Assembly: GCA_021740905.1 (NCBI GenBank) | Contig: JAIOYV010000013.1 | Location: 1 to 64,000 of the forward strand | Direction: 5' to 3' | Origin: Bacteroidales bacterium | GTDB lineage: Bacteria > Bacteroidota > Bacteroidia > Bacteroidales > M50B96 | Length of the DNA: 64,000 nucleotides | In this document: positions 24,095 through 28,775 of the stretch, piece by piece | Numbering within the stretch: position 1 is the stretch's first letter | Layout of the letters: every line of letters begins with the position of its first letter | Made by a program: the position numbers and the translations under genes | The notes under the pieces: generated by a model | The model's input: the letters and a program-made list of their open reading frames with translations, nothing else | The model's database searches: none | Told to the model about the DNA's origin: nothing

Positions 24095-27000
24095 CTAAAA
24101 GAACGACGACAGAAAATCCATCTGCCTGATATTTTCGAGCTGTTGCTTTTTGTTTACATCGCGGTTGGCCAGGGCTGTTTCAGTGAAATAGGTATGTTTT
24201 TCGATAAACCCGATTTGTCTTTTCAACCATTCATCTACCGACTTTATGCGTTTGCGTTCGTACAGTTCCATAAAAAGATCGCGCGAAATAGGGATGAAAT
24301 CGCGCCTGCCCAGATAATCGAGGTCAGCATCGCACATTATCATTTCGAGTTTGTTTTTAGGACTCGGTGGAACTTTGGTGGTCATTATCAAATTGCTTAT
24401 AAGCTCGATCTGCTCTCTGGTGTATTGAAACCGGGGTAGTATTTCACGGGCAAGCTTTACTCCATAAATCTCATGGTTATCGTATCCAATGGTGAAGCCA
24501 CTATCGTGAAACAAGGCAGCCGTTTTCAAAAGAATAATTTCTTCGTTGCTGATCCCTTCGGCTTGTGCTATTAATTCGGCTTGCATGCATACATCAATGG
24601 TATGTTGCAAATTATGATAGTAGAGATTTTTGGGCAATTCCTTCTCAAGCTTTTCAAGCATGTAATCGTAGAGGTCTTTGTACCGGATTTCAAATAAGTG
24701 GAAACGCAATTTACTGTTTGGGATTGTACCGTATGCATCTTCTGCAAAACCTTTTTTGATTGAATTTACGATATACATTTTTAGTTCGGCACCGGCTTTT
24801 TCTCGAATAGTGCCATGATATTCGCAATCGAAATAGTCTTTGGCTAAGTTGAAAGTTGTTTCCGAGATATTGATCTTGCCAACTTTGCCTTGCGACTCCA
24901 TGCGGCTAGCAGAGTTTACGGTTACTCCCCAAATATCGTATGAATACCGCTTTGTGCCGATCACCCCCGCAATGGCCGGTCCTGAGTGGATTCCGATACG
25001 CAGGCCCCAGTTCAAATGGCTGGTTTTCTCATTGTCGAACTCGAATTCCTTCATATACTCCCTGATTTCGAGTGCTGCCAGTATTACCTCAATGGGATTG
25101 GTCCTGTCTTTTTCAGGGATTCCACCGGCACACATATAGCCATCGCCAATGGTTTTTATTTTTTCGATCCGGTACTTTCCCACAATAGTATCGAAACGAA
25201 GGAACAATTCTTCCAGCTTGTGAACCAAAAGAGAGGGGTCGATAAGTTCTGCAATCTCGGTAAAGCCTTGTATGTCGGTAAACAAAACACTTACAAGGTC
25301 GAATTTGTGGATCGAAGCTTTGCCTTTTATTTTCAGTTCATCAGCAATTTGCTGCGGAAGCATGTTCACAAGAAGGTCTTCGGCACGTTCAATTTCTTTC
25401 AGCAATTCATCGGTACGTTCCTTAATAATTTTTTCAAGTTTGTTTTTCTCCTTTGCAAATTGATAACTACGGTACCGGAAAAAGATTATCAGGAAAACTA
25501 TCAGAAAAATACCATAAACAATATAGGCGATAATGGTTTGATAGAAGGGAGCCAGAATCGTAAATTCAATTTTAGCTTCCTTGTATTCTGCACCGTATAC
25601 ATTTTTGGCCTTCACGCAAAAGACATACTTACCGGGCCTTAGAAAATTATACTCTTTTCGCGTAAGGTAACTCCAGTCCGACCATTTATCATCAAAATTC
25701 TCAAGAAAAATTTTATACAACATGGTTTCGTTGCCTAGATAAGCAGGACAAACGTAGTCGAACTGCATTGAATTAAAATGTGGCTCTATTTTTATATTAT
25801 TCTTTTTGATGCTATAATCGATCATTGGATTTAATGGGATTATCGAGTCATTGCCAAGAACTATCCTTTTAATCAATATTGTATGCTCAGTGCTATCGGT
25901 TTGCAAAATATCCCTGTCGAACCGGATCAGTCCATCGGCCCCACCAATCCACAGTATCCTGGCATCTTCCACATAAAATGTCTCCACGGTGAAATCGCTG
26001 ATTTTATTAAAAGGGGCAGTAATCAAATTATAAGTCTCTGTTGCCTCATCGAAAAAAGCTACCATGGTCTCTTTCTTAAATGTTTTGTTCGACCCTCTCG
26101 ACATAATAAGTGATTTTGTCTCTGATTCGTAAATAGGAAACACCCAGCGATCTTTTGCTGTTGAGCTTATCCCAATCAAAGTATCGTCGTAAAACTTGGA
26201 GCCTTGGGGGTCGAACCGATACAAATGGCCCGATTCAGTCGAAAACAACATCCCCATTCTGGTATTATAAACATCAATCCATCCATGATCGGGGGGCAGC
26301 ATGGAGTTTTCACCAAAATGTGTAACCTTCATGGACTGGTTGTATTTCTTCGGCGAGTTTATTTGAAAAACCCCATACGTATTTGAACCTAACCAGATAT
26401 CGCCATTTTCGGCCAATGCCATAGTGCGTATTGAGCCTTTAATCTTGGAAATTGGCCCCAGGTTTCGGAAAATTCCATTTTCGTATTGCAAAGCAGAAAA
26501 TCCAAACAAGCCGCCAATAAATAGTAAATCGGGATGTTCTGGTGAAAACAATGCACAACGTAATTGTTGATCATACACAAGTTTGGCTTCTGCCCCATCT
26601 ATCGAATAGATACCATTGTCAGTTATGGCATACATTTTATCTTTGAATTCGATAAATTGATACACCATAGCCGACACATCTTTTACTTGGGAGAATGATT
26701 TAATGTTAGAATTAAAATCTATTACCTCCTCAGATGTATTATGCTTCAACATAAAAGCACCCGAAAGAGTACCCGCATATAGTTGGCCTTTATGCCTGAC
26801 AACCGACAAAACAGCACCTTGCAAGCCAGTTAAAAAACCAAAATAAGTAAAATGACTGGGGTACTCAATTTTCGAAATCCCATTTCTAAGCCCGGCCCAA
26901 ATATTGCCCGATTTATCGTTAAATAAACAATATATGCTATTGTCGTTCAGTCCATTATTCTTGTTCAAGTGAATAATTACCTGCCCCTTTTTGTCAAGGA

Positions 27001-27841
27001 TTATGATTCCCTTGTCATTGGTGCCAAAAGCAATGGTGCTATCTTTTAAAACAACGCCACGGGCATAATTAAAGCGACTCAAATATTGGTCTGCCTGGGT
27101 GTGATATTGCGTGACTTCGTTAAAATCATACTCCAAAAAGTAGGGCAGGCTGTTCAGTTTAATTAAAATAGAATTACCATAAGAAAGGATATCCTGAATA
27201 TCCTTCCCCTTAAAATATTCTCCCGAAGGCAATTGGACTATCCGATTGTTTTCAAATTTCGACAATCCCAATTTCGAATGGTTTATAAAAAGGCTCTCAC
27301 CTGTGGAAAAAACAGTAAGTGGTGAATGATTGGAATCGAGCAATTCAATTACATCGTTGTGGTAATAATACAATTCCTCGTTGGTTTCGAAAAAAACATC
27401 TTTGCCATAGGAAACTACATTAAATATAGCATCGAAATTGGTAGGTTTCCAGAACTTATCTTTTAATGAGAAAAAAGAAGTAAGCCCTGTGCTGTCGCGA
27501 TCCAGATAACCAAATTCGTTGAATGCCCCCACATAAACACGTCCATCGTCGCAACTAGTGAGGTAAGGCCAACCTTGAATTTCTATCAATCGCCAGGAAA
27601 GATCGTCGTATTCCAGGATACCACTCATATTGCCAAAATACATCACTCCTTTTGCGTCTTGGGTAACCGAAAAATTCTGAGGATCAGTGCCATATTCTTT
27701 CGAAGGGTAGTTCCTAATATAGGGTAAGCCTAACTCGTATTCTTGTGCCCTCAGGCTATCGGTATAAAAAAAAAGAAGATATATTAGTAGAAAAACAATA
27801 AATGAATCAAATTTTAATTTATTTTTACAGAAATTGCTCAT
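24095..27841 (-). CDS. Periplasmic propeller sensor fused to class III adenylate cyclase and HD domain
   Basis: 1248 residues from the Met at 27841; the frame is open 47 codons further upstream, but this Met begins a clear signal/anchor. Layout: Reg_prop-type beta-propeller (about 35-660, e.g. NGLNDNSIYCLFNDKSGNIW), a Y_Y_Y domain (about 695-765), one membrane span (about 768-790), a coiled-coil with NMLPQQIADEL (826-836), a class III cyclase domain (about 850-1035) and an HD domain (about 1070-1215). The cyclase has both metal Asp residues (FTDIQGF Asp856; TIGDGYM Asp900), the adenine-selecting Lys896/Asp969 pair (not the Glu/Cys of guanylate cyclases), and Asn976/Arg980. The HD motifs are His1080, His1112-Asp1113 and a downstream CDADLDYLG. 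In hybrid two-component sensors the same front end is joined to a kinase. Here it would control a cyclic nucleotide. It is divergent from a stress protein gene. Confidence 0.9.
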   Translation of the reverse strand: MSNFCKNKLKFDSFIVFLLIYLLFFYTDSLRAQEYELGLPYIRNYPSKEYGTDPQNFSVTQDAKGVMYFGNMSGILEYDDLSWRLIEIQGWPYLTSCDDGRVYVGAFNEFGYLDRDSTGLTSFFSLKDKFWKPTNFDAIFNVVSYGKDVFFETNEELYYYHNDVIELLDSNHSPLTVFSTGESLFINHSKLGLSKFENNRIVQLPSGEYFKGKDIQDILSYGNSILIKLNSLPYFLEYDFNEVTQYHTQADQYLSRFNYARGVVLKDSTIAFGTNDKGIIILDKKGQVIIHLNKNNGLNDNSIYCLFNDKSGNIWAGLRNGISKIEYPSHFTYFGFLTGLQGAVLSVVRHKGQLYAGTLSGAFMLKHNTSEEVIDFNSNIKSFSQVKDVSAMVYQFIEFKDKMYAITDNGIYSIDGAEAKLVYDQQLRCALFSPEHPDLLFIGGLFGFSALQYENGIFRNLGPISKIKGSIRTMALAENGDIWLGSNTYGVFQINSPKKYNQSMKVTHFGENSMLPPDHGWIDVYNTRMGMLFSTESGHLYRFDPQGSKFYDDTLIGISSTAKDRWVFPIYESETKSLIMSRGSNKTFKKETMVAFFDEATETYNLITAPFNKISDFTVETFYVEDARILWIGGADGLIRFDRDILQTDSTEHTILIKRIVLGNDSIIPLNPMIDYSIKKNNIKIEPHFNSMQFDYVCPAYLGNETMLYKIFLENFDDKWSDWSYLTRKEYNFLRPGKYVFCVKAKNVYGAEYKEAKIEFTILAPFYQTIIAYIVYGIFLIVFLIIFFRYRSYQFAKEKNKLEKIIKERTDELLKEIERAEDLLVNMLPQQIADELKIKGKASIHKFDLVSVLFTDIQGFTEIAELIDPSLLVHKLEELFLRFDTIVGKYRIEKIKTIGDGYMCAGGIPEKDRTNPIEVILAALEIREYMKEFEFDNEKTSHLNWGLRIGIHSGPAIAGVIGTKRYSYDIWGVTVNSASRMESQGKVGKINISETTFNLAKDYFDCEYHGTIREKAGAELKMYIVNSIKKGFAEDAYGTIPNSKLRFHLFEIRYKDLYDYMLEKLEKELPKNLYYHNLQHTIDVCMQAELIAQAEGISNEEIILLKTAALFHDSGFTIGYDNHEIYGVKLAREILPRFQYTREQIELISNLIMTTKVPPSPKNKLEMIMCDADLDYLGRRDFIPISRDLFMELYERKRIKSVDEWLKRQIGFIEKHTYFTETALANRDVNKKQQLENIRQMDFLSSFF

Positions 27842-27917: not shown

Positions 27918-28775
27918 ATGAAAGATGCTAAAAAAACTATTATCGTGCCTTGCGACTTTACCGAAGTGTGCCAATATGCCACCGATTATGCTGTAAGGAT
28001 CTCCCGCTTATTGGGGACAGACTTCACTTTGGTGCATATTGTTGACGAAGGTGGATTTTTTGCGAATGAAGAAAAAAGGAAAAAAGCGGTTGAAGCAGCC
28101 ACCAAAAAACTGGAGAAAATTGCCGACAGAACTTATGAGGAACACAAAGAAAGGCCCAAAATAATTGCCAGGATCGGGAATATTTATTCAACCATAAACG
28201 AAATTGCCGACGAACTTGAAGCCCGAATGGTATTGATGGGCATACATGAATTTAAGGGGATGCAAAAAATTACAGGAAGCCATGCACTAAAAGTAATGGC
28301 CGGATCGAAAATCCCCTATATTGCTATTCCTGGGGCTTATGTGTACAGGGCCGACAACGATATTGTATTCCCTGTCGACCATAAGGTTGAGAATAAAGAG
28401 AAACTGGTATGGGCTAACTATATGGCCAAGACCTTCGACTCGAAGATTCACATAATTACGGCCAACCATAGCGATGAACTTCTGAAGAAAAAAATCAATG
28501 CAAACCTCATTTTTGCCAAAAAATATTTGGACGAAAAAGGCATCAAATATGAGATTACCACTGCGGAAAAAGGAGTGAACTTTGCCGAGGCTGTAGTTAA
28601 ATTTGCCACAGACATGAACACGAACCTTATCCTGATTATGATAACCAAAGAGATTGGCTTTCAAGACTTCCTGCTTGGTGCCGACGAGCAAAAGATAATT
28701 TTCAACGATGGCAAGATTTCAGTTATGTGTGTGAACCCACGGACAGATTTACGTAAGTCGGGAGGCTTTAATTAG
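27918..28775 (+). CDS. Tandem-domain universal stress protein
   Basis: 285 residues from ATG 27918 (a TTG six bases earlier is in frame). It consists of two Usp folds, about 5-145 (KKTIIVPCDFTEVCQYATDYAVRI start, MGIHEFKGM and TGSHALKVMAGSKIP loop) and about 150-283 (DNDIVFPVDHKVENKEKLVWA, LILIMITKEIGFQDFLLGADEQ). Usp proteins bind nucleotides or dimerise during stress. Some mycobacterial ones bind cAMP. The gene is divergent from the cyclase-HD gene with only 76 bases between their starts, so a shared control region is likely. Whether this protein responds to the cyclase product is a hypothesis. Confidence 0.85.
   Translation: MKDAKKTIIVPCDFTEVCQYATDYAVRISRLLGTDFTLVHIVDEGGFFANEEKRKKAVEAATKKLEKIADRTYEEHKERPKIIARIGNIYSTINEIADELEARMVLMGIHEFKGMQKITGSHALKVMAGSKIPYIAIPGAYVYRADNDIVFPVDHKVENKEKLVWANYMAKTFDSKIHIITANHSDELLKKKINANLIFAKKYLDEKGIKYEITTAEKGVNFAEAVVKFATDMNTNLILIMITKEIGFQDFLLGADEQKIIFNDGKISVMCVNPRTDLRKSGGFN

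Follow-up and report, generated by a model that had tools for sequence, protein, structure and literature searches.

The gene at positions 24095..27841 (minus strand) of the window, by which we mean the whole 64,000-nucleotide stretch of Bacteroidales DNA analysed here, raises the question of whether one membrane receptor might both synthesize a cyclic nucleotide and remove it again. Its open reading frame starts with an ATG at 27841 and codes for a protein of 1248 residues, as the initial annotation had it for frame, strand, start and length. The protein begins with a hydrophobic signal sequence or anchor seen by hydropathy and direct reading (residues about 9-32, within a hydrophobic stretch at 8-32; 27746..27817, this and the following features being on the minus strand). 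This is followed by a beta-propeller sensor of the two-component type (about residues 35-695; 25757..27739), recognized by a Reg_prop match above the cut-off (residues 297-317, 1.3e-8) and by the solved propeller sensors 4a2l and 3v9f, a Y_Y_Y domain (701-763; 25553..25741; Pfam, 4.2e-9, above the cut-off), and a single transmembrane span (about 769-790; 25472..25537) with a strong hydropathy signal at about 766-790. Pfam and hydropathy thus bear out the front end that had been proposed for this protein. On the cytoplasmic side lie a probable signalling helix or linker resembling HNOBA (about 791-840; 25322..25471), indicated by a weak PF07701 match and by helices in the structural model, a class III adenylate-type cyclase domain (845-1026; 24764..25309; Guanylate_cyc, 2.7e-49, above the cut-off), and a C-terminal HD hydrolase domain (about 1060-1240; 24122..24664; HD, 1078-1173, 2.3e-7, above the cut-off). 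The Pfam search of the protein returned no match to a histidine kinase or receiver output. We rejected an assembly or frame artefact as the source of this layout because the domain scores are far above chance and the same architecture recurs in independent genomes.

The cyclase domain scores 167.7 bits against PF00211 (cut-off 21.9) and contains all six canonical residues of the adenylate-type homodimeric enzymes, namely the metal ligands D856 and D900, the purine pair K896 and D969, and the transition-state pair N976 and R980; the purine pair and both metal aspartates are found where the initial annotation had placed them. By every sequence test the domain is a class III adenylate-type cyclase, and it is predicted to synthesize cAMP. 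The adenylate K/D pair is kept in most relatives, and the partner cyclases of the HD family at large are also adenylate-type, with either Lys/Asp or Lys/Thr at the purine pair, the Lys/Thr combination of some of them being what we take to be the class IIIb version.

The HD domain scores 31.5 bits against PF01966 (cut-off 22) and retains the H...HD...D residues. Along with H1080 and H1112-D1113, which had been pointed out earlier at these positions, we identified further family-conserved residues that had escaped notice, namely H1076, E1124, D1171, D1173, W1205 and Q1209. The histidines H1076 and H1080, the H1112-D1113 dyad, E1124, D1171 and D1173 are kept in nearly all of 130 HD homologues that we collected. 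A profile search (profile A1, built from 25 sequences) recovered the family in 104 of 296 Bacteroidota genomes, and the only curated NCBIfam or Pfam entries that apply to it are the generic HD/HDIG ones. Its members occur as free-standing proteins of ~200 residues, or fused to cyclases, PycTM, YitT or TPR proteins. The YitT fusions (L047 and L050; L086 and L089) combine the HD domain with a five-span membrane protein (PF02588 + DUF2179) and are encoded near class III cyclases. A second HD domain in the genome from which the window derives (L002, 36-2052; G000:C136) lies in a region where it is joined to a Y_Y_Y-LytS-type kinase by an overlap that is out of frame; just before this HD stands what looks like the C terminus of a class III cyclase, which gives the whole the appearance of a rearranged or decayed receptor.

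The initial annotation had left it to a survey to establish how widespread the fusion of the two domains is. A scan of genome contigs recovered 31 relatives, and with later sequence retrieval the number of Bacteroidota chains combining a cyclase and an HD domain rose to ~40. Their hosts include members of the family to which the window organism belongs and of further families in the order, as well as Marinifilum, Crocinitomicaceae/Brumimicrobium and a number of other Bacteroidota lineages. Propeller front ends are present in the window protein, L012, L013, L137, L138 and others; the Marinifilum chains have a short membrane or linker front and are about 500 residues long; and a GAF front end is found in L058/L100. 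The one-chain fusion is present in about 3 of 395 genomes sampled phylum-wide (G000, G041 and G150) and is common among relatives within the window's order. It is hence recurrent but patchy in Bacteroidota. The fusion did not turn out to be a well-described common family, as no curated family or paper naming it was found; our literature search on bacterial class III cyclase-HD fusions, HD-PycTM proteins and HD-type cAMP phosphodiesterases likewise returned nothing on point.

The association of the two domains extends beyond the single chain. In three loci (L123, L124 and L139) the propeller-cyclase and the HD domain are encoded by separate, overlapping or adjacent genes, and in another (L084) two cyclase genes are followed by a free-standing HD gene. 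A class III cyclase gene lies within 2.1 kb of 9 of the 31 HD genes lacking a cyclase fusion (0.22 expected) and within 11 kb of 15 of them (0.74 expected), counts that are uncorrected for shared ancestry, although the genes stem from several families. The HD and class III cyclase parts therefore belong together, whether fused, split or nearby, and this co-occurrence lends better support to the earlier suggestion that the HD domain may remove the product of the cyclase. The pairing is not invariably one of two intact domains, with the HD catalytic residues being lost in the fused relatives L133 and L140, and the first cyclase metal aspartate in L132, L136 and L141. These sets of losses suggest one-sided decay. 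Judging from the substituted residues, the two activities are not always retained together, and lineages can apparently tilt towards one of them by residue loss in either domain.

To better understand what the HD domain might act on we compared it with known hydrolases in structure and sequence. An AlphaFold2 model of the domain is confident (pLDDT 93.9), and its top VIA matches are PDE10A and PDE7A, with Z up to 17.4 and an rmsd of 2.9 over 195 residues. The match to YpgQ, which we take to be a nucleotide hydrolase, has a Z of 16.2 (rmsd 2.8 over 173 residues), about 1 below the best phosphodiesterase, so that the substrate cannot be read from fold similarity by itself. Foldseek searches with the same model placed 2pq7 and YpgQ at the top and ranked HD hydrolases and class I phosphodiesterases (PDEs) together, and the nearest solved sequences are those of YedJ/YpgQ-type HD hydrolases. 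A profile-profile comparison of the HD family with a PDE4D/5A/10A profile gave 86% probability over a near full-length alignment, the latter profile comprising three sequences, two of which (PDE4D and PDE10A) were checked against the PDB. As a control, the sister HD family, presumably the one known as COG4339-type, gave 5% with the same profile.

In this profile alignment, and in it only, Q1209 together with F1212 at +3 falls on the QVGF motif of the class I PDEs. With single-sequence PDE templates the local alignments were shorter and did not extend to the glutamine, so the Q1209 match rests on the three-sequence profile; random seven-sequence subsets of the cyclase-partnered HD domains gave 42-88% with that profile, and placed Q on Q in 5 of 6 cases. 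The invariant glutamine of the class I PDEs has been described as the purine-scanning residue (PMC5617230). Gln1209 is present in 38 of 38 cyclase-fused and 16 of 18 cyclase-neighboring HD domains but in only 2 of 47 PycTM-fused ones, where the position is mostly Asn and also Ser or Thr. The distribution of Gln versus Asn corresponds to one well-supported split of the tree into two subfamilies. We considered repeated co-evolution of this residue with the partner and discarded it, as a single change of partner suffices on the tree. The split fits a difference in specificity and, being single, supplies no independent statistical evidence for one.

Comparable as they are, the HD domain and the class I PDEs (PF00233; PDE4, PDE5, PDE10) are set apart by several features. 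Both have the helical fold of the HD superfamily, the YHNxxH and HD motifs, the aspartate metal/acid residues and the aligned glutamine with Phe at +3; however, the HD domain is about 200 residues long against about 330, and the third motif histidine of the class I PDEs (HDxxH) is usually Phe or Tyr in the HD family. Against PF00233 the window protein scored 11.8 bits (cut-off 24.8), with 0 of 198 genomes yielding a match above the cut-off, and the PS00126 pattern HD[LIVMFY]xHx[AG]xx[NQ]x[LIVMFY], which all 3 of 3 human PDEs match, was found in 0 of the 130 HD homologues. Class I membership was rejected on these two signatures. YHNxxH was likewise set aside as a class I hallmark since the sister family has it too: these presumably COG4339-type phosphohydrolases, the nearest outgroup by sequence, share both the YHNxxH and DADLSILG motifs with the HD family but lack its Q-x-x-F motif. 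The domain is a member of the HD superfamily that we infer to be class I PDE-like in action while lying outside class I by its signatures.

The HD domains of the sister subfamily occur in N-terminal fusion with the Pycsar effector PycTM (L103, L105, L109-L111, L114, L116 and L143-L183) in many Bacteroidota, usually as one copy per genome, and the literature that we searched makes no mention of the HD part of these proteins. In two loci from the same genus (L162 and L174) the HD-PycTM gene is directly adjoined by a PycC-like cyclase in which Gln and Ala/Val replace the Lys/Asp of the purine pair.

Another conserved partner of the cyclase-HD genes is a universal stress protein (USP) with tandem domains, which in the window is encoded divergently from the receptor (27918..28775, plus strand). 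In 18 of 40 cyclase-HD loci, the window included, and across many Bacteroidota families, a homologue lies no more than about 300 bp from the cyclase-HD gene, with the gene order being divergent in some loci and co-directional in others; it also adjoins the separate HD gene of L123 and the free-standing one of L129. The nucleotide-binding motif reads GIHE in the USP of the window lineage and GTHG in several relatives, a change that weighs against the part proposed for this USP below. Elsewhere in the same genome (L203; G000:C36:12000-31000) four class III cyclase genes stand in a row, with another USP gene about 0.8 kb beyond. The mycobacterial USPs Rv1636 and MSMEG_3811 bind cAMP (PMC11107214) and share the USP fold with the present proteins, which are encoded beside a cyclase and, at about 280 residues, have twice the Rv1636-type length. 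Because the Rv1636-like USPs are confined to a few actinobacterial genera (PMC11107214), we put forward cAMP binding by the window USP as a hypothesis by analogy. The 11 proteins with cNMP-binding domains in this genome are further candidate receptors.

Taken together, sequence and model make it probable, in our judgement, that the window gene codes for an adenylate cyclase under the control of a signal, with a phosphodiesterase for the nucleotide that it makes in the same chain, and that the USP is a candidate receptor or buffer of cAMP. The propeller would sense a periplasmic ligand, perhaps a glycan as the initial annotation suggested, and the signal would pass through the Y_Y_Y domain and the single span to the linker helices, altering them and thereby setting the activity of the dimeric class III cyclase and with it the synthesis of cAMP. 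At the C terminus, the HD domain would act as a compact bimetal phosphodiesterase related to the class I PDEs, hydrolysing the same 3',5'-cyclic nucleotide in place, a role for which the resemblance to class I PDEs in fold and in the aligned base-binding glutamine provides further, if predictive, support. Such a receptor could set the net cAMP in its vicinity, limiting either the duration or the background of the signal, with low basal cAMP, a sharper signal offset and local confinement as the likely consequences, and the neighboring USP could serve as the receptor or buffer for this pool.

HD proteins have many substrates, and the domain might instead act on another nucleotide (a linear one such as a dNTP, ppGpp or a 2',3'-cNMP), being merely co-regulated with the cyclase. 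Its closeness to the YedJ/YpgQ-type enzymes in sequence and the top Foldseek ranks of 2pq7 and YpgQ point in that direction, but the recurrent coupling to class III cyclases in fused and unfused form, the coupling of the family to Pycsar PycTM effectors, which respond to cyclic mononucleotides, and the Gln and Phe pair aligned with that of the class I PDEs make this unlikely. A mainly regulatory HD domain, in which nucleotide binding would control the cyclase and catalysis would be absent or incidental, accords with its position directly after the cyclase and with its retention in the two relatives that have lost HD residues; yet with all metal residues intact in the window protein and nearly all relatives, and with free-standing copies of about 200 residues that have no cyclase in cis, we regard this as improbable.

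It is more improbable still, to the point of being a marginal prospect, that the cyclase makes cGMP or a cyclic pyrimidine and that the protein functions in Pycsar-type defence. A weak PADLOC match to PycC (2e-13) and the PycTM fusions of related HD domains speak for it, whereas the K896/D969 adenylate pair contrasts with the Q and A/V found in the PycC-like cyclases beside HD-PycTM genes; moreover, the window protein has no match to PycTM or PycTIR, and no PycTM was seen beside its gene. A bolder and rather doubtful extension of the reading that we favor may also be entertained. The whole family could consist of bacterial 3',5'-cNMP phosphodiesterases related to the class I PDEs, with a purine (Gln) subfamily connected with adenylate cyclases and USPs, and with another of pyrimidine type (Asn/Ser/Thr) that serves Pycsar effectors, so that one base-reading residue would set the in-chain off switch for cAMP and for anti-phage signalling.

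To our knowledge, the use and removal of cAMP in Bacteroidota are poorly described, and the cyclase-HD family offers a concrete candidate for a cAMP sink physically coupled to its source, with a candidate receptor alongside. More generally, it points to a group of bacterial proteins that has attracted little notice and that would switch off cyclic-nucleotide signals, linking ordinary cyclic-nucleotide sensing with the Pycsar effectors. The class I PDEs include many targets of human drugs, and our findings suggest that bacteria possess a compact relative of them that has stayed unannotated.

The window protein is neither a two-component system, nor a Pycsar component, nor an orthologue of the plant CAPE proteins, although it has features in common with each of these. 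With the hybrid two-component propeller-Y_Y_Y sensors of Bacteroidota it shares the propeller, the Y_Y_Y domain and the single span at the front, but its output is a cyclase and an HD domain in place of their histidine kinase, receiver and HTH. Pycsar systems combine a pyrimidine cyclase with a PycTM or PycTIR effector, and their PycTM effectors are fused to the same HD family, albeit in the sister subfamily; there, a membrane effector goes with Asn/Ser/Thr, whereas in the window an adenylate-type cyclase goes with Gln1209. The nearest analogue is CAPE (COMBINED AC with PDE) of Marchantia and other streptophytes, a membrane protein that likewise unites a class III adenylyl cyclase with a phosphodiesterase for cyclic nucleotides (PMC5159850, PMC8115329), the latter activity being predicted in our case. 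In CAPE a bona fide class I PDE stands at the N terminus and is separated by two spans from the cyclase at the C terminus (PMC5159850), and there is no propeller; the domain order in the window protein is the reverse, with the propeller at the front and an HD domain outside the class I signatures placed C-terminally, straight after the cyclase. An argument similar to the one made above, for low basal levels, sharp offset and local cAMP, has been advanced for CAPE (PMC5159850).
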